This document shows, piece by piece, positions 39,440-51,946 of a DNA stretch of 64,000 nt. The position numbers and the translations under genes were made by a program. The notes under the pieces were generated by a model. That model did no database searches. It worked only from the letters and a program-made list of their open reading frames with translations, and was not told where the DNA came from. How positions within the stretch are numbered: the first letter of the stretch is position 1; each line of letters opens with the position of its first letter. Location: assembly GCF_900102085.1 (NCBI RefSeq), contig NZ_FMVM01000020.1:1-64000 (forward strand), in the 5' to 3' direction. Origin of the DNA: Paenibacillus polysaccharolyticus (GTDB lineage Bacteria; Bacillota; Bacilli; Paenibacillales; Paenibacillaceae).

Positions 39440-39640
39440 CGTAGGGTACTGCTGTGTTTGTCCAACCTGGCAGGTCTCCTGGCTCCAGTATCATTGCCAT
39501 AGCAGCTCCTTCCCGGTCTTCGTAAGACCAGTGGATATGCTGCCTGACTCCTCTGTTACAGTGGCGGGACCGCGCCGGCATCACACCGGACTTCCCTTTT
39601 AAGCTTCTACCCCAGCGGGTAGAGCACCAAGTTCCACATA
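39440..39640 (-). ncRNA. Cobalamin (adenosylcobalamin) riboswitch
   Basis: On the minus strand the B12 box AGCCAGGAGACCTGCC lies at 39469-39484, preceded by the other conserved pieces in order: GGTGCTCTACC, GGGAAGTCCGGTG, the GATGCCGGCGCGGTCCCGCCACTGTAA core and GTCAGGCAGCATATCC. This is a strong match to the class-I cobalamin riboswitch. It is followed by a terminator and then by the Nik/Dpp-type transporter operon. Binding of B12 should stop transcription. Ends are approximate. Confidence 0.93.
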
Positions 39641-39681
39641 TTCAATTCACTAAAAGTTGGTATCTGTTACACTTCTGTATC

Positions 39682-42239: not shown

Positions 42240-42941
42240 TTACTCCGCAGGCAGTAGAAAACGATATCCGATCCCTGGTTCCGTCTGAATATAGGATGGC
42301 CGGGTGGGATCTTCCTTTAGCTTTTTACGCAAATGACCCACATAAACTCGCAAATAATGGCTGTCCGACTCATGATGATGCGCACCCCATACTTGCTGTA
42401 AAAGCTGGCGCTGGGTAATAATTTTGCCTGCATTCGAGGCAAGCACCTTCAGCATCTCATATTCGGTTGGCGTTAATTTGACCTGTTCTCCGTCCAGCTC
42501 AACCTGTCTTAAAGCCAAATCAATCACCAAGGAGCCAAAACGTAAAATCGGTTCATCGGTTGTTTTGGCCACATGTCGCAGCGCCACTCGAATCCGGGCA
42601 ACCAGTTCACCCATGCCAAACGGTTTCGTCACATAATCATCTGCACCTGCATCCAGTGCGGCAATCTTATCAGCCTCCTGATCTTTTGCTGTCAGCACAA
42701 TAATTGGCACCTGTGACCATTCCCTTATTCGGTGAAGCACGTCCATGCCAGATATGCCTGGCAAACCTAGATCAAGAATGATCAAATCGGGATGCACCAC
42801 ACTTGCCTGCGTAATACCCTCCTCTCCATCAGCACACTCATAATGATCATATTGGTGAGCCTGAAGAGTCACTTTTAGCAGTTTGCGAATCTGCGGTTCA
42901 TCATCAATCACCAGAATGCGAGCCCCTAATGCGGCATTCAT
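42240..42941 (-). CDS. kdpE: Kdp operon response regulator
   Basis: A 233-residue OmpR/PhoB-type regulator. Receiver domain: acidic pair DDE at residues ~13-15, phospho-acceptor aspartate in LIILDLGLPGISGMD near residue 57, lysine in YVTKPF. The C-terminal winged helix reads LTPTEYEMLKVLASNAGKIITQRQLLQQVWG...YLRVYVGHLRKKL. It ends with a typical GIGYRFL. It follows the kinase gene directly (GGAGATTAG before the ATG). It should bind the two TTTAC-type boxes upstream of the operon and switch on kdpFABC at low potassium or high turgor demand. Confidence 0.95.
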   Translation of the reverse strand: MNAALGARILVIDDEPQIRKLLKVTLQAHQYDHYECADGEEGITQASVVHPDLIILDLGLPGISGMDVLHRIREWSQVPIIVLTAKDQEADKIAALDAGADDYVTKPFGMGELVARIRVALRHVAKTTDEPILRFGSLVIDLALRQVELDGEQVKLTPTEYEMLKVLASNAGKIITQRQLLQQVWGAHHHESDSHYLRVYVGHLRKKLKEDPTRPSYIQTEPGIGYRFLLPAE

Positions 42942-44570
42942 CTAATCTCCAACCTCTCCTTGCCCTGTATAGGAAAATGGCATTTCATCCCTTCCCACAG
43001 GCAACTCTATACGTATTCTTGTTCCTCCATCCGGATTGCCCTCAGCATGGATTGTACCTCCGTGAACCTCCACAATACCTTTGCAGATGGCAAGTCCCAG
43101 CCCGGTTCCCGTAATATGCTGCGTGGAGGGTGAGCGATAGAACTTATCAAACACGCGAGTACGCTCCGGTTCCTCAATCCCAACACCCTGATCATCTACG
43201 ATGAAGGTCACACAACGCTGTCTCGGTTCATTCTTCACCCTTATGATCACCATGCTCTCGTCGGGTGAATATTTGAATGCATTGCTGACGATATTCACAA
43301 GTACCTGCTCAAGCAGCACCTCATCTCCGTCAAAAAAAACCGGTTCTTCCGGCAGTTGTACCGTAACTTCACGATGAGGACTGAATTCTCTGACTTTTGC
43401 CAAAACAACGCTAATCATATCCCCTACATCACACCATTTGCGATTAAGTTGTAGCATACCGCTCTCCAGCCGCACCATGCCAAGCAAGTTGGTTACGAGA
43501 CGATTCATACGCAACGCGCCGTCACGGATGTTACCAGTCAATTCCAGGCGATCCTCGGGTGTAAAAAGACTGTCATTCTCTATCAGCCCTGTGGCTGAAC
43601 CGATAATGGCAGTTAACGGCGTACGTAGCTCATGGGATACCGAATCCAGCAGCGCAGTTCGGATGCGCTCTGATTCAGCGGTAACTTGAGCAAGGCGCGC
43701 TTCCTCAGCCAGCTTCACCCGGGCGATTGCACCTGCCGCAAGACTGCCGCAGGCTTCCAGCAGCTGGCCCTGTTCCTGTTGCTTCTCCGGCTCACTAGTA
43801 GTCATGTATACAGCAAGTACACCGTGAATGTGGTTCTCTGTTTGCAGCGGAACATACAGCCCCGCCGATTCACCCAGCTTGGGCGATCCTTTGCCTGCGG
43901 TCTGTCCCTGTTTGTAGACCCAATCCGCGATAGCCAGCTCCGAAGAACGGCTTCCCCAGGCATTCTTCTCTGTCCCGATCTCAGACGCAGGTCTCTGTTT
44001 CGTCCAAAGCTTCAGTTCACCCTGCTGATCCGGCAGATATATGGCGGCTGGACTTCCGAGCATAAGGGATATCTGGCTCGTCATGTTATCCAACAAGGTA
44101 TCCAGATTAGTAATTGCAGTGATCTGTCGACTAAGATCATACAGGGCATTCGTTGTGGCTTCACGAGATTTAACCCGATCCAGCTGTTGCCGTAAACGTC
44201 CGGCGAGACTTGCCGTCATGACGGCGACAGCCAAATACACCCCAAACGAAATCAGATATCGCAAATCCTCTATCGTAAAACTGAGATAAGGTGGAACAAA
44301 AAAGAAATCAAACATGACAACACTAAGGGTCGCTGCATATACTGCTGGCCCCATTCCCCAATATACAGCACTAATCAGTATAGGAAACAGGTACACCAAT
44401 GCAACGTTGACCAAGTCATCACTCATCCCGATGATATGAAGCAGTACGGTTAACAGGATGATGGTAAGTGTTACCCATATATAGGCGGGAACCCTTTTCC
44501 AACGAGAGATCCCCTGTAAGCTTTCCTGATCTTTGCCCTCTTCCTGATGTTCAGACAAATTCAATTCCAC
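42942..44570 (-). CDS. kdpD: KdpD C-terminal half: membrane sensor histidine kinase
   Basis: A 542-residue histidine kinase equal to the C-terminal two-thirds of a normal KdpD. Four membrane helices (DUF4118) lie at about residues 30-125, a GAF-like domain at about 145-280, the phospho-acceptor in SVSHELRTPLTAIIGSATG near residue 312, and a HATPase domain with N box NIVSNAFKYS and G boxes DQGVGIE and GTGLGLAICKGIVEVHGG. It lacks the N-terminal KdpD and USP domains, which are on the upstream ORF. The start is a GTG five bases after the upstream stop, with no clear Shine-Dalgarno; translational coupling is likely. Confidence 0.9.
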   Translation of the reverse strand: MELNLSEHQEEGKDQESLQGISRWKRVPAYIWVTLTIILLTVLLHIIGMSDDLVNVALVYLFPILISAVYWGMGPAVYAATLSVVMFDFFFVPPYLSFTIEDLRYLISFGVYLAVAVMTASLAGRLRQQLDRVKSREATTNALYDLSRQITAITNLDTLLDNMTSQISLMLGSPAAIYLPDQQGELKLWTKQRPASEIGTEKNAWGSRSSELAIADWVYKQGQTAGKGSPKLGESAGLYVPLQTENHIHGVLAVYMTTSEPEKQQEQGQLLEACGSLAAGAIARVKLAEEARLAQVTAESERIRTALLDSVSHELRTPLTAIIGSATGLIENDSLFTPEDRLELTGNIRDGALRMNRLVTNLLGMVRLESGMLQLNRKWCDVGDMISVVLAKVREFSPHREVTVQLPEEPVFFDGDEVLLEQVLVNIVSNAFKYSPDESMVIIRVKNEPRQRCVTFIVDDQGVGIEEPERTRVFDKFYRSPSTQHITGTGLGLAICKGIVEVHGGTIHAEGNPDGGTRIRIELPVGRDEMPFSYTGQGEVGD

Positions 44571-44575
44571 CCGCT

Positions 44576-46909
44576 TTATTTATAATCATCATCCGCTACG
44601 ATCAATACATCACGATGTCTCGACAGACGAACAAGCTGGTTCACCACCGATCCCGAGCCACGATGACCATTCAGCCACCATACCCGTTTTGCCTGCCCAA
44701 CTACCAGTTGTGTCGCCTTCGCTTCCGTAGCCTTTGCATCCAAAATACCTGGTACTTCCCGCAACTTTGCACTTTGATGGATATGAAAATGCCCTCCTAG
44801 CCGCACAGTGAGTTGCTCCAATCCTGCCAGGTGCTCCTTCACTTCTGGAGTCATTGCCATGCCTGTGCCGATGTGTACATGATGGACATGCCAGGATGCC
44901 TTCAGCCGATAAGCCATGCGAAAACCTCTACGAATTAACCGTTCGGCGTGACGGTCGCTACTGACACACACAAAAACCGACTCCTCACGACGCCATGGGC
45001 CCCGTAACGTACGTGCCGCTCGCTGCGATTCAAGCCGCTCATCCACATCATCTGCAAGTTCGCGTAGAGCCAGTTCACGCAGAGCAATTAGATTACCTAT
45101 TTTAAAAAAATTCGCAAGCGCCTGCTCTACCTTGGCAGTTGCATAGATTTTACCCTCTCGCATGCGCTGCCGCAAGGCCTCGGGAGCGACATCAATTAGC
45201 TGCACCTCGTCCGCCAATTGAATGATCTTATCAGGTACCGTCTCTCGCACCCGAACCCCCGTAATATGCTCAACGGCATCATTTAAGCTTTCAAGATGCT
45301 GTACGTTCACGGTTGTAATGACGGATATGCCCGCGTCCAGCAGTCGCAGCACATCCTCGTAACGCTTTTTCCGAGCATTTCCAGGCACATTGGTATGCGC
45401 AAGCTCATCCACAAGCACCACCTCGGGATGCAATTGTAATATCGCTTCCGTATCCATTTCCTCTAAGCATGCGCCTTGATATATACTCTGCGCCCGCGGG
45501 ATGATGGGCAAGGAGCCGATTTGTTCCACCGTGTCCGCTCGTCCATGGGTTTCCAGCAATCCAATTTGCACATGGATGCCTTTGCGCAACAGATCATTGC
45601 CTTCCCGAAGCATCATGTAGGTTTTGCCCACCCCCGGAGCAGCTCCAATATAGATTTTAAATGTCCCACGCCGAATCAGTCCAATCTGTTCCTTCATCTC
45701 CTGCTCACTGAGTCTGCGATAGGTTTTCTGCTCCGTATCACTTACTTTTGCCGGCACTACCCGTTCGCCCTCTCGTGCTGACCGATCCGCAACAAGTAGT
45801 AAATCTATCCCTTGCAGTTTGCGAAGCAGCGAGTTAATGAGGGAGCCTTGCCATAATTCCTGCCATCGTGTACGCCGCGAATGCCCCATAACAATCCGGG
45901 TAATCTGCCGTTTGATCGCATACTGTACCAATGTGGCCGGGATGTAGCGGTGATGTATGACCGGAAGCTCCTGCATGTGGCCGCCGATTTTCTCCACCAG
46001 TTTCATCATGTTGCGGCGAAAAACCGTCGCTTCCCTCGTTAGTGGCTGTTTCATGGGACGGAAGACAACGACATGCAAGCTCCCATTCAATCGACGGGCA
46101 ATCTGCTGTCCGCGCTGAATGTAGATCGAACCGTTCCAGTGGTACTGCGCGGAGACAAGAATACGTTCCATAATGCCTGTTGCGGGCGGAAGACCCATTT
46201 CCTTGCGATGTTCACGTAAAGACTCGTTAACCCCTTCAGCAACAATTTTCAATGCCAGCTCACGTAAAATTCCGAGATTACCATGGCGGAAAACATCCGC
46301 ACTTCCGTGACCTTGCAGATGACCTTCCGCAAGACGACTCAAAATGGTCTCTGGCGTAACGTCGATCAGCTTCACTTCATCCGCCAGTTCCAGTGTGTCT
46401 GCCGGTACAGTATGTGACACGTTAATTCCCGTGAGCTGTCTGGCGAGTTCGGTATACCCCTCTAGTTCATACACATTCACGGTAGTTATGACACTGATAT
46501 TGCGGTGCAATAGAAAACGGATATCCTCCAGTCTGGTCGCATGCCTCGCCCCCTCCCGGTTTCGATGTGCCAACCCGTCGACCAGGACAACCTCCGGATT
46601 GCGAACTAGCAATGCATCCAGATTCAAGTCTTTCATCTCCGCTCCGTCACTGCTTCGAATCCAGTGAATGCTGGGCACGCGCTCAAGCTCACCAAGCTGT
46701 TCTACGGTTTCCGGCCTTCTCATCGTGGAGACTGCACATATGACAACATCTACGCCCTGCTCGCGCAACTGATTGCCGTCTCTGAGCATATGATATGTTT
46801 TACCTGAACCGCTGACCGGGCCAATGTAGATTTTAAACGTGCCCTCTTGCAGCTTCGAAATCATGCGCAGCATCTCTTCCGGCGATTTACGTTTGAAGCT
46901 GTCCTCCAT
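44576..46909 (-). CDS. KdpD N-terminal half with duplicated KdpD-USP module
   Basis: A 777-residue cytoplasmic protein equal to the N-terminal sensor part of KdpD, present twice in tandem. Module 1 (about 20-390) has Walker A-like GPVSGSGKT at 30-38, VVLVDGLAHRN and then a USP-like domain. Module 2 (about 410-777) has the canonical GAAPGVGKT near 421, VVLVDELAHTNVPG, TTVNVQHLESLND, and a second USP-like domain. Module 1 has lost the glutamate and threonine of DELAHTN (now DGLAHRN), so it may no longer bind nucleotide normally. The transmembrane and kinase parts are on the next ORF. ATG has AGGACAG upstream. I infer that it signals to that kinase. Confidence 0.88.
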   Translation of the reverse strand: MEDSFKRKSPEEMLRMISKLQEGTFKIYIGPVSGSGKTYHMLRDGNQLREQGVDVVICAVSTMRRPETVEQLGELERVPSIHWIRSSDGAEMKDLNLDALLVRNPEVVLVDGLAHRNREGARHATRLEDIRFLLHRNISVITTVNVYELEGYTELARQLTGINVSHTVPADTLELADEVKLIDVTPETILSRLAEGHLQGHGSADVFRHGNLGILRELALKIVAEGVNESLREHRKEMGLPPATGIMERILVSAQYHWNGSIYIQRGQQIARRLNGSLHVVVFRPMKQPLTREATVFRRNMMKLVEKIGGHMQELPVIHHRYIPATLVQYAIKRQITRIVMGHSRRTRWQELWQGSLINSLLRKLQGIDLLLVADRSAREGERVVPAKVSDTEQKTYRRLSEQEMKEQIGLIRRGTFKIYIGAAPGVGKTYMMLREGNDLLRKGIHVQIGLLETHGRADTVEQIGSLPIIPRAQSIYQGACLEEMDTEAILQLHPEVVLVDELAHTNVPGNARKKRYEDVLRLLDAGISVITTVNVQHLESLNDAVEHITGVRVRETVPDKIIQLADEVQLIDVAPEALRQRMREGKIYATAKVEQALANFFKIGNLIALRELALRELADDVDERLESQRAARTLRGPWRREESVFVCVSSDRHAERLIRRGFRMAYRLKASWHVHHVHIGTGMAMTPEVKEHLAGLEQLTVRLGGHFHIHQSAKLREVPGILDAKATEAKATQLVVGQAKRVWWLNGHRGSGSVVNQLVRLSRHRDVLIVADDDYK

Positions 46910-47080: not shown

Positions 47081-47644
47081 TCACTTCTCTTCTGCGATCA
47101 GTGCCAGATTCAGCTCATTCACATTGACACGCGGTTCACCGAATATACCTAACTGGCGGCCTTGTGTATGATCCTCAATAAGCTGAGTCAACTTCTGCTT
47201 ACTAAGTCCTGTCGCTTGACTAATCCGCGGAATTTGGGCCATAGCCGCTTCAGGAGACAGGTCCGGGTCAAGCCCTGAACCGGAACCCGTAACCAGATCG
47301 GCAGGGATCTGTTGCGGCAGAGTAGGATTTTCCTGGCGGAGTGTAGCCAGCTTTTGGTTCATCTCTGCAATGTATTCTGGAGATGCCACCGCTCGATTAG
47401 ACCCTGCCGATGCGGTCGGATCATATTTCGCATTTGAAGCGCGAGGCTGGAACAATCCCGGTGATTTCACTTCCTGCGCTAACAGGGATGAACCGATGAT
47501 TTTCCCATCTTGAATGATGAGACTGCCGTTTGCCTGTGAAGGAAACAGCAACTGGGCCACCCCCGTTGTGACGAGCGGATAGAGCAGACCACAGACTAGC
47601 ATGAGCACAACAGACAACCGCAATGCGGGTATAAACATCTTCAT
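47081..47644 (-). CDS. kdpC: Potassium-transporting ATPase subunit C
   Basis: A 187-residue subunit of the KdpFABC potassium pump. One N-terminal membrane helix (ALRLSVVLMLVCGLLYPLVTTGVAQLLF) leads into an extracytoplasmic domain with the KdpC blocks LFQPRASNAKYDPTASAGSN, VTGSGSGLDPDLSPEAAMAQIPRI and LIEDHTQGRQLGIFGEPRVNVNELNLAL. The frame opens at a GTG at 47653, but AGGAAGTG suits the ATG at 47644. KdpC is thought to stabilise or help the ATPase catalyse. It is about 100 bases downstream of kdpB. Confidence 0.95.
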   Translation of the reverse strand: MKMFIPALRLSVVLMLVCGLLYPLVTTGVAQLLFPSQANGSLIIQDGKIIGSSLLAQEVKSPGLFQPRASNAKYDPTASAGSNRAVASPEYIAEMNQKLATLRQENPTLPQQIPADLVTGSGSGLDPDLSPEAAMAQIPRISQATGLSKQKLTQLIEDHTQGRQLGIFGEPRVNVNELNLALIAEEK

Positions 47645-47750
47645 ACAAATCACTTCCTGAATGAATTTAATGTATTCATTAAAAGGGGGACAACCACGTC
47701 ATCTTCACCATGAGTTACATCACGCCTGTACTTCACAGCTGCAGTGACAT

Positions 47751-49844
47751 TTACATCAAACCTGACAAAACCAAGTCAATCAGCTTGATGCCGATAAACG
47801 GTACAATCACACCGCCAACACCATAGAGGAACACATTGCGGCTCAGCAACCTTTCGGCAGACATCGGACGATATTTCACACCTTTCATCGCAATCGGAAT
47901 GAGCAACGGAATAATAATCGCATTAAAGATCAGTGCGGACAGAATTGCAGATTGCGGTGAAGAGAGATTCATAATGTTCAGTGCCTGAAGCTGTGGCATG
48001 GCGAGAATGAACATCGCTGGGATGATGGCAAAATACTTAGCGATATCGTTGGATATGGAAAAGGTGGTCAGTGCGCCACGCGTAATCAGCAGTTGCTTGC
48101 CTATAGAGACTACCGACAACAGCTTGGTCGGGTCAGAGTCCAGGTCAATCATGTTGGCCGCTTCTTTGGCCGCCATCGTTCCAGAATTCATCGCCAGGCC
48201 CACATCGGCCTGCGCCAGAGCAGGAGCATCATTGGTGCCGTCGCCTGTCATGGCGACAAGTTTGCCCTCCTGCTGTTCTTTTTTGATCGCCGCAATCTTG
48301 TCCTCAGGCTTCGCTTCCGCTATAAAATCATCCACACCCGCCTCCAGTGCGATCGTCGCTGCCGTCAGTGGGTTATCGCCGGTGCACATGATTGTCTTGA
48401 TACCCATGGCACGCATCTCGGCAAATTTCTCCTTGAGACCGCGTTTCACGGTGTCTTTCAAATAAATCACGCCATAGATTCGGTTATGGATCGCTACCGC
48501 CAGTGGTGTCCCCCCGGCCTTTGCAATCCGCGTCGCTATTTCGTCCAGATCACCGGGTACACGTCCGCCTTCGGAGGTCACATACCGCTTGATTGCATCT
48601 ACTGCGCCTTTGCGGATTTTGGTTCCATCACTCAGATTCAGACCAGACATGCGTGTTTCCGCAGTAAACTCGATACGATCGGCATTGGTGTGGTTGCTTT
48701 CCTCCCAGCTCTGCCCCTGCTTACTTGCAAGTTCGACGACAGAACGACCTTCTGGTGTTTCATCTCGCACTGAAGCTTGAAGCGCCGCCCGTGTCATCTC
48801 GGGTACAGTTACACCCTGAACCGGAATAAATTCAGAAGCCATCCGGTTGCCGTATGTGATCGTGCCTGTTTTGTCCAGAATCAACGTATCGATATCGCCA
48901 GCCGCTTCCACCGCTTTCCCCGACATCGCTAGCACGTTAAACTGTGTCACCCGATCCATGCCAGCAATCCCGATGGCAGACAGCAGACCGCCGATCGTAG
49001 TTGGAATCAGGCACACAAGCAGAGCAATTAAGGTAGCCAGATCGAGCCGGATGCCGAGATAATTTGCCATAGGGACCATCGTCACAATGACGATCAGGAA
49101 GATTAGCGTTAATACGGCAAGAAGGGTAGTCAGGGCAATCTCGTTTGGCGTTTTCTGACGCTGTGCGCCTTCCACGAGAGAGATCATTCGATCCAGAAAC
49201 GATTCGCCGGGATCGGTCTGAACTCGCATGATGATGTAATCAGAGGTCACCCGTGTACCTCCGGTGACTGAAGAGAAATCGCCGCCGGCTTCCTTGATCA
49301 CCGGGGCGGACTCCCCTGTAATAGCCGATTCATCGATAGAGGCCAAACCTTGGGTAATCTCACCGTCCGTTGGAATGAGTTGCCCGGCTTCCACACGGAC
49401 GAGGTCCCCTTTTTTCAACTCGGTCGAAGCGACCTGTTTCACAGTTCCATCCTTCTGCAATAGATTGGCCATCGTATCCGATTTTGTCTTACGCAGGGTA
49501 TCCGCCTGTGCTTTGCCCCGCCCTTCCGCTAGCGCCTCGGCAAAATTGGCAAATAGCAACGTGAAGAGCAGAATAAAAAATACAGCCACATTGTATCCTC
49601 GCCCTGCATCCGAAGCGGTAAATAGATTGGGATCAATACATAATAGCAACGTAATGAATGTGCCGACTTCCACGATAAACATGACTGGATTTTTGATCAT
49701 GACCATCGGATTCAGTTTTTTGAATGCATCTCGCATGGCCTGGAGCAACATGGATTTATTTAAAGATCGTTTCGACCCGGGATGATGCTGAACGTGGTTG
49801 ATGCGTTGATGAATTTGTTCTCTGTTTTGTTCCACTGCATTCAT
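47751..49844 (-). CDS. kdpB: Potassium-transporting P-type ATPase subunit B
   Basis: A 697-residue P-type ATPase that energises potassium uptake. The phosphorylation site is [13 protein letters not shown] near residue 321. Other catalytic blocks are [10 protein letters not shown] (actuator), [31 protein letters not shown], and [21 protein letters not shown]. Seven or so membrane segments are present. The ATG at 49844 has GGAGGTGG a few bases upstream; earlier ATGs at 49901 and in between are discounted. It partners KdpA, C and F. Confidence 0.96.
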
Positions 49845-49988
49845 TGTGAATGCCACCTCCATACTATACGTGCTTACTTCAATCCTTTGCCGTGCTTCCA
49901 TAATTATTGGCTGTGTCGCTGTCGCTCCGCTGGCTTATTCACCTGCCACTTCTTCAGCCATCACCACCTCGTATCATTCACCTGCCGC

Positions 49989-51668
49989 TCATCGCACCAT
50001 CGCCAAATGCTCCGCAATAGGACCTAGAGCCAGCGAAGGGAAGAATGTCAGCGCGCCTACGACCACAATCATCATGACCAGAATGCCTGCAAATAGCGGT
50101 GTATGCGTCCGTAGCGTTCCTGTGGTAACCGGGACAACCCGTTTCACGGCAAGTGAACCTGCTATCGCCAGCATGGCAATCATCGAGATATATCTTCCGA
50201 GCAACATCACAATCCCTATAGCGATATTGTAAAAGTCCGTGTTGGCGTTCAGTCCGGCAAAAGCCGATCCATTATTGGCCGCTCCTGAGGCAAAAGCGTA
50301 CAACACCTCGGTTAGCCCATGTGTACCGCCATTGGAAATGGAAGCCACGGCCTCCGGCCTTATTAAAGCGAGTGCGGTTGGCACGAGAATAATCAACGGA
50401 TGAATCAGCAGCGCGATACAAGCCAACTTAATCTCTTTGCCTTCAATCTTTTTGCCCAGGAACTCCGGTGTCCGGCCGACCATTAACCCGCAGATAAAGA
50501 CCGCAATGATCACATACAGCAGACCATTCAACAAACCTACACCCTTGCCGCCAAATACATTGTTTAGCATCATCTGAGCAAGAGAAACCAATCCCCCAAG
50601 CGGAGTAAGTGACTCATGCATGTTGTTCACCGACCCCGTTGTTGCTGCTGTAGTTACAGCCGTGAACAAAGCCGATTCGGGAATCCCAAACCTGACCTCC
50701 TTACCTTCCATGTTGGTTTGTAGTCCATTCGCATCCAGCGCAGGCACTCCGCGATACTCGGAAATAAATACCGTCGTCAGCATCACTAGGAACAGAACTC
50801 CCATTGCAGCAAACAACGTCCAGCCCTGCTTCCGGTTATTCACCATCAAGCCAAATGCATACACCAGCGCTGTCGGCAGCAACATCATACAAACGATATG
50901 CACCAGATTGCTCAGCGCCGTTGGATTCTCAAACGGATGCGCGGCATTGGTGCCGAACCAGCCCCCGCCGTTGGTTCCAATGTGTTTAATCGACTCGAGC
51001 GAAGCCACTAATCCGCGCGTAATGGTCTGCTGTGCACTCTCCAGCGTGGTTGCGTTCACCGCACCGGCCAGCGTCTGCGGCACCCCTTGAAATACAAGGA
51101 ACAAAGCCACAATGAAGCTGAGCGGTAAAAAAATACGAGTAATCGACCGAACCAGGTCGACATAAAAGTTACCCAGATCATCCCGGCGGCCTACTAATCC
51201 GCGAATAAAGGCAATCGCCACCGCGAATCCCGTTGCCGCCGAGGTGAACATCGGGAACGTTACTGCGAGCAGTTGTGACAGATACGACAGAGCATTCTCT
51301 CCCGTATAGGACTGCCAGTTGGTATTGGTCATAAACGATGCGGCTGTGTTAAATGCCTGCGCTGCTGGCATATTATCGATCCCATCCGGATTGAGAGGCA
51401 GGAACTTTTGCAGCCGTAACACCAGAAACATCAGGATCAGCATGACCGCATTGGAGATGAGCACGGCAGACAGATATTTTTTCCACCCCATCGTTTCATC
51501 TTCCCGTACACCCATCAGCCGATACAATAATCGCTCCGGTCCTCCAAACACACGATCAAGTCCCGTTCGTTGCCTGTCAAATACCCTCACCAAATAACTG
51601 CCCGCCGGCTTCACCAGTAACAATATGATGAGTAGCGTAACCGCTACCTGCACTACACCGATACCCAT
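49989..51668 (-). CDS. kdpA: Potassium-transporting ATPase potassium-binding subunit A
   Basis: A 559-residue membrane subunit that holds the potassium-selective pore. The four pore-loop regions contain NTNWQSYTGENALS, KHIGTNGGGWFGTNAAHPFENPT, ATTGSVNNMHESLTPLGG and GAANNGSAFAGLNANTDFYN, with glycine/asparagine-rich selectivity segments intact. About ten membrane helices. ATG follows GGGAGGATATGCAGAT. It is preceded by two tiny membrane-peptide genes, kdpF and an unnamed 28-residue ORF. Confidence 0.96.
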   Translation of the reverse strand: MGIGVVQVAVTLLIILLLVKPAGSYLVRVFDRQRTGLDRVFGGPERLLYRLMGVREDETMGWKKYLSAVLISNAVMLILMFLVLRLQKFLPLNPDGIDNMPAAQAFNTAASFMTNTNWQSYTGENALSYLSQLLAVTFPMFTSAATGFAVAIAFIRGLVGRRDDLGNFYVDLVRSITRIFLPLSFIVALFLVFQGVPQTLAGAVNATTLESAQQTITRGLVASLESIKHIGTNGGGWFGTNAAHPFENPTALSNLVHIVCMMLLPTALVYAFGLMVNNRKQGWTLFAAMGVLFLVMLTTVFISEYRGVPALDANGLQTNMEGKEVRFGIPESALFTAVTTAATTGSVNNMHESLTPLGGLVSLAQMMLNNVFGGKGVGLLNGLLYVIIAVFICGLMVGRTPEFLGKKIEGKEIKLACIALLIHPLIILVPTALALIRPEAVASISNGGTHGLTEVLYAFASGAANNGSAFAGLNANTDFYNIAIGIVMLLGRYISMIAMLAIAGSLAVKRVVPVTTGTLRTHTPLFAGILVMMIVVVGALTFFPSLALGPIAEHLAMVR

Positions 51669-51758: not shown

Positions 51759-51836
51759 TTAGAATTTCTCTGGCTTCACCAGCACGTACCCGAGATAGAC
51801 AATCAGAGCCATGACAATCACGCCGATGAAAATCAT
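51759..51836 (-). CDS. kdpF: Potassium-transporting ATPase subunit F (small peptide)
   Basis: A 25-residue single-helix membrane peptide. It starts with MIFIGVIVMALIVYLGYVLV and ends KPEKF, which fits the KdpF pattern of one hydrophobic helix then a short charged tail. KdpF stabilises the KdpABC complex. ATG has a purine-rich GGAAGGGCGAAAAG upstream. Confidence 0.85.
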   Translation of the reverse strand: MIFIGVIVMALIVYLGYVLVKPEKF

Positions 51837-51859: not shown

Positions 51860-51946
51860 TCAGGCCTTCTCACAAAATTTTACAAAGCCCCAAAACAAAG
51901 CAAACAACAGTACGATCAGTCCAATCATCGTTGCATCATTCACCAT
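51860..51946 (-). CDS. Unnamed 28-residue membrane peptide at the head of the kdp operon
   Basis: A short frame beginning ATG after GAAGGACGC, ending TGA just before the kdpF Shine-Dalgarno. The product has a polar N-terminus (MVNDAT), one hydrophobic helix (about 14 residues, rich in L, I, F, W) and a charged end KFCEKA. It fits a membrane-spanning peptide. Position as first gene of the operon, 23 bases ahead of kdpF, suggests a role with the Kdp pump or its sensor. I do not recognise a named family and offer no function. Confidence 0.65.
   Translation of the reverse strand: MVNDATMIGLIVLLFALFWGFVKFCEKA

Follow-up and report, generated by a model that had tools for sequence, protein, structure and literature searches.

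A doubled KdpD-USP protein without a histidine kinase in the kdp operon of Paenibacillus polysaccharolyticus, with a first module predicted to be a pseudokinase

Introduction

The KdpD domain of Escherichia coli is described in the available text of PMC11018627 as an atypical serine kinase that phosphorylates S162 of KdpB, inhibiting the pump. According to the same text, phosphorylation of KdpB requires the Walker A motif, D109, E110 and W39/R190, the substitutions E110A and D109A each abolish it, and ATPase activity was not seen. Split forms of KdpD are described there as well, and in relatives single KdpD modules are serine kinases, the short KdpD of Deinococcus geothermalis being stimulated by c-di-AMP. 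Binding of, or a response to, c-di-AMP by short KdpDs is thus on record for two groups (PMC11018627, PMC11302148), and for S. aureus-type USP domains a c-di-AMP motif, (A/G/C)xSxSx2N...(Y/F), is given in the part of PMC8214093 at hand. The main text of PMC11018627 mentions neither Paenibacillus nor the string 'duplicat', and no biochemistry of a doubled KdpD was found in the main texts searched, which were mostly open-access.

The kdp locus and its doubled protein

The window analysed here is a stretch of 64,000 nucleotides of Paenibacillus polysaccharolyticus (contig NZ_FMVM01000020.1, positions 1 to 64,000), and all features given below lie on its minus strand. The pump genes comprise a probable kdpF of 25 aa (51759-51836), assigned by position and hydrophobicity only, kdpA (49989-51668), kdpB (47751-49901, the true start possibly lying further downstream) and kdpC (47081-47653; PF02669, 233.8 bits). 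The serine of the ITGES motif of KdpB, equivalent to E. coli S162, is encoded at 49308-49310. A hydrophobic ORF of 28 aa (51860-51946) lies immediately upstream of the probable kdpF, and a cobalamin riboswitch (117.2 bits) is found elsewhere in the window at 39452-39646.

After kdpC comes an ORF of 777 aa with an ATG start (44576-46909), here called ASK2, which has the domain order KdpD-USP-KdpD-USP and no histidine-kinase part. It matches NF038185 (KdpD_non_kinase) in two stretches (719.9 bits) and Pfam KdpD, PF02702, likewise in two stretches over the curated cut-off (521.7 bits in total). A structured attenuator in the gap between kdpC and ASK2 was considered and rejected, the fold being not better than shuffles (z -0.54). 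Only 5 nt separate the end of ASK2 from a histidine kinase of 542 aa with a GTG start and the domains DUF4118-GAF-HisKA-HATPase (42942-44570), in which the domain search found neither a KdpD nor a Usp domain, and the KdpE response regulator (42240-42941) is next. The TM, GAF, DHp and CA parts of a full-length KdpD are thus carried by this separate ORF and not by the ASK2 chain; what is usually a single KdpD protein is split here, and its soluble N-terminal part is doubled.

In the whole-genome scan the KdpD domain of module 1, a predicted ATP-binding pseudokinase (46229-46846), scored 222 bits against PF02702, and that of module 2, with canonical active-site residues (45044-45673), scored 310 bits. 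USP1 (residues 248-376, 45782-46168), delimited by alignment and model, contains the only stretch of the ORF over the Pfam Usp threshold (residues 277-364), while USP2 (residues 643-774, 44588-44983) was delimited by alignment and model and assigned from the NF038185 match over residues 397-773 and from the placement of model residues 642-774 on the KdpD-USP structure 7ji4 (Z 14.5). The two copies are 46.5% identical in their KdpD domains (101/217) and 28.2% in their USP domains (37/131).

The initial annotation had seen both domains twice in one ORF; the two PF02702 stretches, the two NF038185 stretches and the structure model bear this out, and the motif letters it quoted for both copies are correct. 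Its premise that the first module is homologous to KdpD-USP, with changes at catalytic positions, is likewise supported; that the ORF stops short of the kinase region, which is a gene of its own, had gone unmentioned. An assembly artefact, the other event that could have undone it, is rejected by the recurrence of the same double frame in 59 of 61 loci of the genus.

Residue patterns of the two KdpD domains

Residues were counted in 198 distinct doubles, left from 220 double frames once genomes present in two collections had been removed, and sorted by hand into 180 of the type found in the window and 18 of the Alicyclobacillus type. Frames with a module of fewer than 170 residues (including L037, L073 and L205) and doubles spread over two frames (L276, L280) were not counted.

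The Walker A motif of module 1 in ASK2 reads GPVSGSGKT (46796-46822) and retains the G-x5-GKT spacing, and across the window-type doubles the first module keeps the equivalents of the ATP-binding residues K37, T38, D109 and R190 without exception (180/180), with Y at position W39 in 179/180. The catalytic glutamate, E110 in E. coli, is missing from 174 of the 180 first modules, where its place is taken by G (140), H (21), D (7), N (3), S (2) or Q (1); in ASK2 the residue aligned with this lost Walker B glutamate is G112 (codon 46574-46576). As E110 is present in 6/180, its loss is not universal; the six first modules that keep it are those of L058, L059, L064, L083, L165 and L166, the four from the genus belonging to riboswitch lineages. 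A further signature, NVYELEGY (46454-46477), replaces NVQHLESL, and its changes are fixed in all 180, which carry Y (178) or F (2) in place of Q at position 145 and E (178) or D (2) in place of H at position 146.

Module 2 of the same proteins holds the complete serine-kinase set, with K, D, E and R in 180/180 and an aromatic Y or F at position 39 in 180/180; the E110 equivalent, E502 in ASK2 (codon 45404-45406), and H146 are present in every case. Module 1 does not have the full set, its glutamate being absent in the window as in the great majority counted above. E110 is present in 18/18 modules from single-module frames, and the substrate motif TGES occurs in 74 of the 76 KdpB ORFs scanned, the pattern having failed in two.

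Judged by these residues, module 1 looks like a conserved pseudokinase, predicted to bind ATP without transferring phosphate. For the 'pseudo-ATPase' of the initial annotation, 'pseudo-serine-kinase' is the more fitting term, the E. coli domain phosphorylating KdpB with no ATPase activity seen (PMC11018627, available text).

The USP domains and the candidate ligand

The b1-a1 loop of USP1, QYHWNGS (46127-46147), is a predicted ligand pocket in which Q, Y, H, N, G and S are each found in 58 of 58 sequences of the genus; over the 180 window-type doubles the pattern QY[H]WNGS holds with Q in 179, Y in 180, N in 180, G in 177 and S in 178. USP2 is variable at this loop position in the genus and does not have Q-Y-x-x-N-G. 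The b4-a4 loop of USP1, GHSRRTRWQELWQGS (45842-45886), corresponds to the signature GxSxxxRWxExxxGS of single short KdpDs, in 15/15 of which G, S, R, G and S are conserved; genus USP1 sequences have its G, S, E and G in 58/58, the last S in 57/58, W in 53/58 and R in 48/58. In genus USP2 the signature is broken, with A for S in 36/58 and N for E in 36/58, and the diverged loop of ASK2 lies at 44648-44698. Most of the signature is retained in USP2 of the doubles from Brevibacillus and Bacillus (n=14), so that its loss in USP2 appears as a feature of the Paenibacillus side.

To score the c-di-AMP motif known from S. aureus, columns were taken from a full-length KdpD, L202, which itself matches 4/5, in place of an S. 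aureus protein. Of 56 genus USP1 domains, 55 match none of the five positions, and 57 genus USP2 domains match 1-3 of 5; four full-length KdpDs of the genus reach 3-4 of 5. That the motif is unmatched in both USPs argues against c-di-AMP binding of the S. aureus type. Short KdpDs elsewhere are nevertheless reported to bind or respond to the nucleotide (PMC11018627, PMC11302148), and 18 single short KdpDs match the motif at 0-2 of 5 only, so that c-di-AMP, as suggested by the initial annotation, stays a candidate. Six other Deinococcus sequences served as stand-ins, the D. geothermalis KdpD not being among the 45 listed of 436 plasmid records. The genome itself has 3 diadenylate-cyclase-domain matches and five riboswitches for c-di-AMP; in the window, no match to this riboswitch rose above the gathering score. 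USP1 with its QYHWNG loop is best described as a likely ligand sensor whose ligand is probably a nucleotide, c-di-AMP being the leading candidate. The idea that module 1 could sense a ligand is supported, a regulatory role of this kind being the best reading. Taken together, the split in catalytic residues and the conserved loop confined to USP1 suggest that function is divided, with module 1 sensing and module 2 phosphorylating.

Structure models

An AlphaFold2 model of ASK2 built from 80 rows has a mean pLDDT of 81.5 and a pTM of 0.53, and one of an Alicyclobacillus double, from 18 rows, a pTM of 0.42, values at which the domain arrangement is weakly determined in both. Module 1 of the former matches the N-terminal KdpD domain of P. 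syringae (2r8r) with Z 29.0 and 1.6 A over 206 residues. USP1 and USP2 are placed together in this model (pTM 0.53) in a pair that resembles tandem USPs, namely 7mq5 (Z 21.3, 247 aligned, 3.6 A) and UspE 5cb0 (Z 19.9), the Foldseek alignment to 7mq5 being poor (rmsd 13.4); the pair also resembles C-terminal domains of KCC transporters, with Z about 14-15. The Alicyclobacillus model shows the same pairing (4r2j, Z 21.0, 242 aligned, 3.5 A). At the b4-a4 place of the ASK2 model, residues 348-354 of USP1 are helical, and the USP2 loop residues 746-752 have pLDDT <50.

Selection and history

Purifying selection on module 1 is similar to that on module 2. Over 225 genus pairs from 52 genomes the median dN/dS is 0.051 for KdpD1, 0.053 for KdpD2, 0.056 for USP1 and 0.077 for USP2, and the mean identity within the genus is 77% for KdpD1, 69% for USP1, 82% for KdpD2 and 63% for USP2; 63 of 219 columns of KdpD1 are invariant across 59 genus doubles. 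The first copy had been called 'degenerate' and 'drifted', a description that does not survive these values, the substitutions fixed in 180/180 and the conserved loops of USP1; given dN/dS of 0.051 against 0.053, decay of module 1 is rejected.

In a tree of 104 modules, on which 27 window-type and 10 Alicyclobacillus-type doubles were placed, the 27 first modules group in a single clade together with a truncated copy that stands alone (support 100/99), and the 27 second modules group in another (support 98/95). The module-1 clade covers several families, some of its members have long branches, and the main splits of the two clades are similar. One clade for each module type and similar main splits point to an old doubling that was inherited as a unit. 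The Alicyclobacillus and Sporolactobacillus doubles are placed apart from the window-type clades, and AU tests rejected neither a doubling shared by Alicyclobacillus-type and window-type doubles (p 0.466) nor modules 1 and 2 as a single clade (p 0.566). In three loci (L180, L181, L280) the two modules occur as adjacent genes.

Distribution and operon context

Within the genus, PF02702 is over cut-off in 61 of 75 genomes (62 at E 0.001), and KdpA and KdpC are present in 61/75 each; by the listings all three mark one and the same set of 61, and the remaining 14 are without all three. The double is intact as one open frame in 59 of the 61 loci, which answers the proposal of the initial annotation to look for the architecture in other Paenibacillus, and is frameshifted in two (L037, L073). 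That it might occur as an orphan gene without a pump was rejected, the 13 genus loci apparently lacking kdpABC having kdpA and kdpC farther upstream; genes are inserted between pump and double. In the four loci that were mapped, all polymyxa-like (L296, L299, L301, L302), the interval between kdpC and the double spans about 4-9 kb and holds, by eye, apparently NRAMP-type and metal ABC transporter genes.

Long frames bearing the double are common among the matches listed in family and order searches, and in the best 80 of 589 loci it lies in one frame in 78. Among the matches listed it is found in Paenibacillus, Cohnella, Saccharibacillus, Siminovitchia terrae, Bacillus methanolicus, Brevibacillus and Gottfriedia, and also in Alicyclobacillus, Sporolactobacillus and metagenome bins; the loci fetched from beyond the genus were mainly those with top scores and thus not a random sample. 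In other Bacilli, KdpD is either a full-length protein or a lone module of about 360-470 aa. A very diverged double (L205, G425:C12; a 716-aa frame, 85 + 49 bits) stands outside all counts.

Transcription of these loci is apparently controlled in two ways. In 39 of the 61, a histidine kinase match of >250 bits and KdpE accompany the double on its strand, and the 3 kb before kdpA contain no c-di-AMP riboswitch on that strand; in one of them (L092) a riboswitch sits a short way upstream but on the opposite strand. In 21 genomes ASK2 is kept, a c-di-AMP riboswitch precedes kdpA and an adjacent HK-KdpE pair is absent (6 loci checked directly, 10 more fetched and checked, 5 placed by coordinates). 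The frameshifted locus L037, which has histidine kinase fragments and no riboswitch, brings the first group to 40, and the 40:21 split requires about 2 changes on the gene tree, so that it represents few events and not 61. Mutual exclusion of the riboswitch and KdpDE has already been reported (PMC6488665, available text), and is relevant here because ASK2 is retained where the histidine kinase does not adjoin.

Further KdpD copies were seen in some genomes. Full-length KdpD occurs elsewhere in 4 of the 21 riboswitch genomes (G019, G027, G028, G059); the last has a second kdp locus (L203:5125-15035) with a full-length KdpD, KdpE and, following kdpC, a 278-aa truncated piece of module-1 type, and the full-length KdpDs of L204, L207 and L208 are distant from the sole kdpA found in those genomes. 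The four full-length copies in the genus have D for E110 and C for W39. Downstream of the double in Paenibacillus sedimenti (L268:5323-8028) and in L134:1-1035, cut by the locus end, a full-length KdpD-like histidine kinase adds a third copy to the operon; it gave no match to the Walker B pattern D.LAH.N.

A proposed mechanism and its alternatives

The explanation that we favour, if by a modest lean, is that in ASK2 the serine-kinase arm of a split KdpD stands free and is doubled, with module 2 as the kinase, module 1 as a pseudokinase bearing the USP1 sensor, and the two allosterically coupled. At ample K+, module 2 would phosphorylate the conserved TGES serine of KdpB and shut the pump; module 1 would bind ATP without passing on its phosphate, and the QYHWNG loop of USP1 would take up a nucleotide signal, perhaps c-di-AMP. 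Pairing of USP1 with USP2 inside the chain, in the manner of a tandem USP, could couple both halves, such that module 2 would be regulated by the ligand bound to USP1 and by the ATP bound to module 1.

The main competitor takes ASK2 as a histidine-kinase sensor half that has become detached and acts mainly in trans on the downstream kinase or otherwise on transcription, as the N-terminus of a full-length KdpD would. The kinase 5 nt downstream, in which neither a KdpD nor a Usp domain is seen, speaks for it, as do the 39 of 61 genus loci with kinase and KdpE on the same strand and the altered kdp and ktr transcripts seen under some conditions on deletion or overexpression of the short KdpD of B. 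anthracis (PMC11302148, available text). Yet ASK2 is retained in the 21 riboswitch genomes where no HK-KdpE pair adjoins it, and in B. thuringiensis deletion of the short KdpD left kdp transcription unaffected (PMC6488665, available text), so this reading is unlikely. Retention of the ORF while control of the locus varies between a two-component system and a c-di-AMP riboswitch argues that its constant job is control of the pump. What binds the USPs is a separate matter that overlaps the explanation favoured above: we give a little less than an even chance to ATP, AMP, another small molecule or a partner protein in place of c-di-AMP, in view of the unmatched S. aureus motif in USP1 (0/5 in 55/56) and of a QYHWNG loop unlike those of Deinococcus and other single-module proteins. 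The 18 single-module short KdpDs, however, match that motif as poorly (0-2 of 5), short KdpDs share much of GxSxxxRWxExxxGS with USP1, and for two groups outside Paenibacillus short KdpDs are on record as binding c-di-AMP or responding to it (PMC11018627, PMC11302148).

Two further readings concern module 1. It could be a second active kinase with another chemistry or another target, for all counted ATP-binding residues are retained, E110 persists in 6/180 and the replacements are fixed, not random; but the change of the glutamate to G in 140/180 and to H in 21/180, set beside the inactive E110A protein of E. coli (PMC11018627, available text), makes this improbable. Or it could be a decaying or purely structural remnant of a tandem duplication, as its lower Pfam score (222 vs 310 bits) and lower genus identity (77% vs 82%) might be taken to say. 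Against a remnant stand a median dN/dS like that of module 2, a single clade across several families, the 63 of 219 columns invariant in 59 doubles, and a USP1 more conserved than USP2 (69% vs 63%), and we regard it as very improbable indeed.

Beyond the reading of ASK2 as a doubled serine-kinase arm, a bolder version may be put forward tentatively, as possible but doubtful: that of a bacterial pseudokinase-kinase tandem, comparable to JAK JH2-JH1, controlling a P-type ion pump, in which, after the doubling, module 1 would have lost catalysis and turned into a nucleotide-gated sensor, module 2 (in Paenibacillus) would have lost its sensor pocket and stayed catalytic, and the USP pair would be the transmitter. 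If true, the QYHWNG-bearing USP1 would represent a nucleotide pocket of a new class. ASK2 appears to separate, within one protein, the sensing and phosphorylating that are mixed in single KdpD modules, so that switching of a KdpD serine kinase by a USP ligand becomes testable by mutating the halves singly.

Comparison with known systems

The short KdpD/Usp serine kinase of the D. geothermalis type is, like ASK2, a KdpD and USP chain without a histidine kinase encoded after kdpC, and module 2 shares its canonical active-site residues; ASK2 differs in having two modules per chain, catalytic residues being lost in a conserved way from module 1, which also has a USP loop of its own. The family NF038185, 'KdpD-like non-kinase potassium sensor', files a single module, whereas ASK2 matches it in two stretches. 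The KdpD and USP domains of full-length KdpD (E. coli, S. aureus) are homologous to those described here, where the histidine kinase half is a separate gene; there are thus two proteins in place of one, the sensor half is doubled, and the S. aureus c-di-AMP motif is unmatched. The split KdpD of PMC11018627 (available text) likewise consists of a KdpD/Usp chain and a TM/GAF/HK chain. In the tandem-type USPs (UspE, Rv2623, PA1789) two USPs are paired in one chain, as may be the case in ASK2 according to the models of low global confidence; in ASK2, unlike in them, a KdpD domain sits between the USPs in sequence. The doubled KdpDs of Alicyclobacillus and Sporolactobacillus have a four-domain order identical to that of ASK2, and differ from the window type in keeping K37, D109, E110, Q145, H146 and R190 in both modules (18/18).
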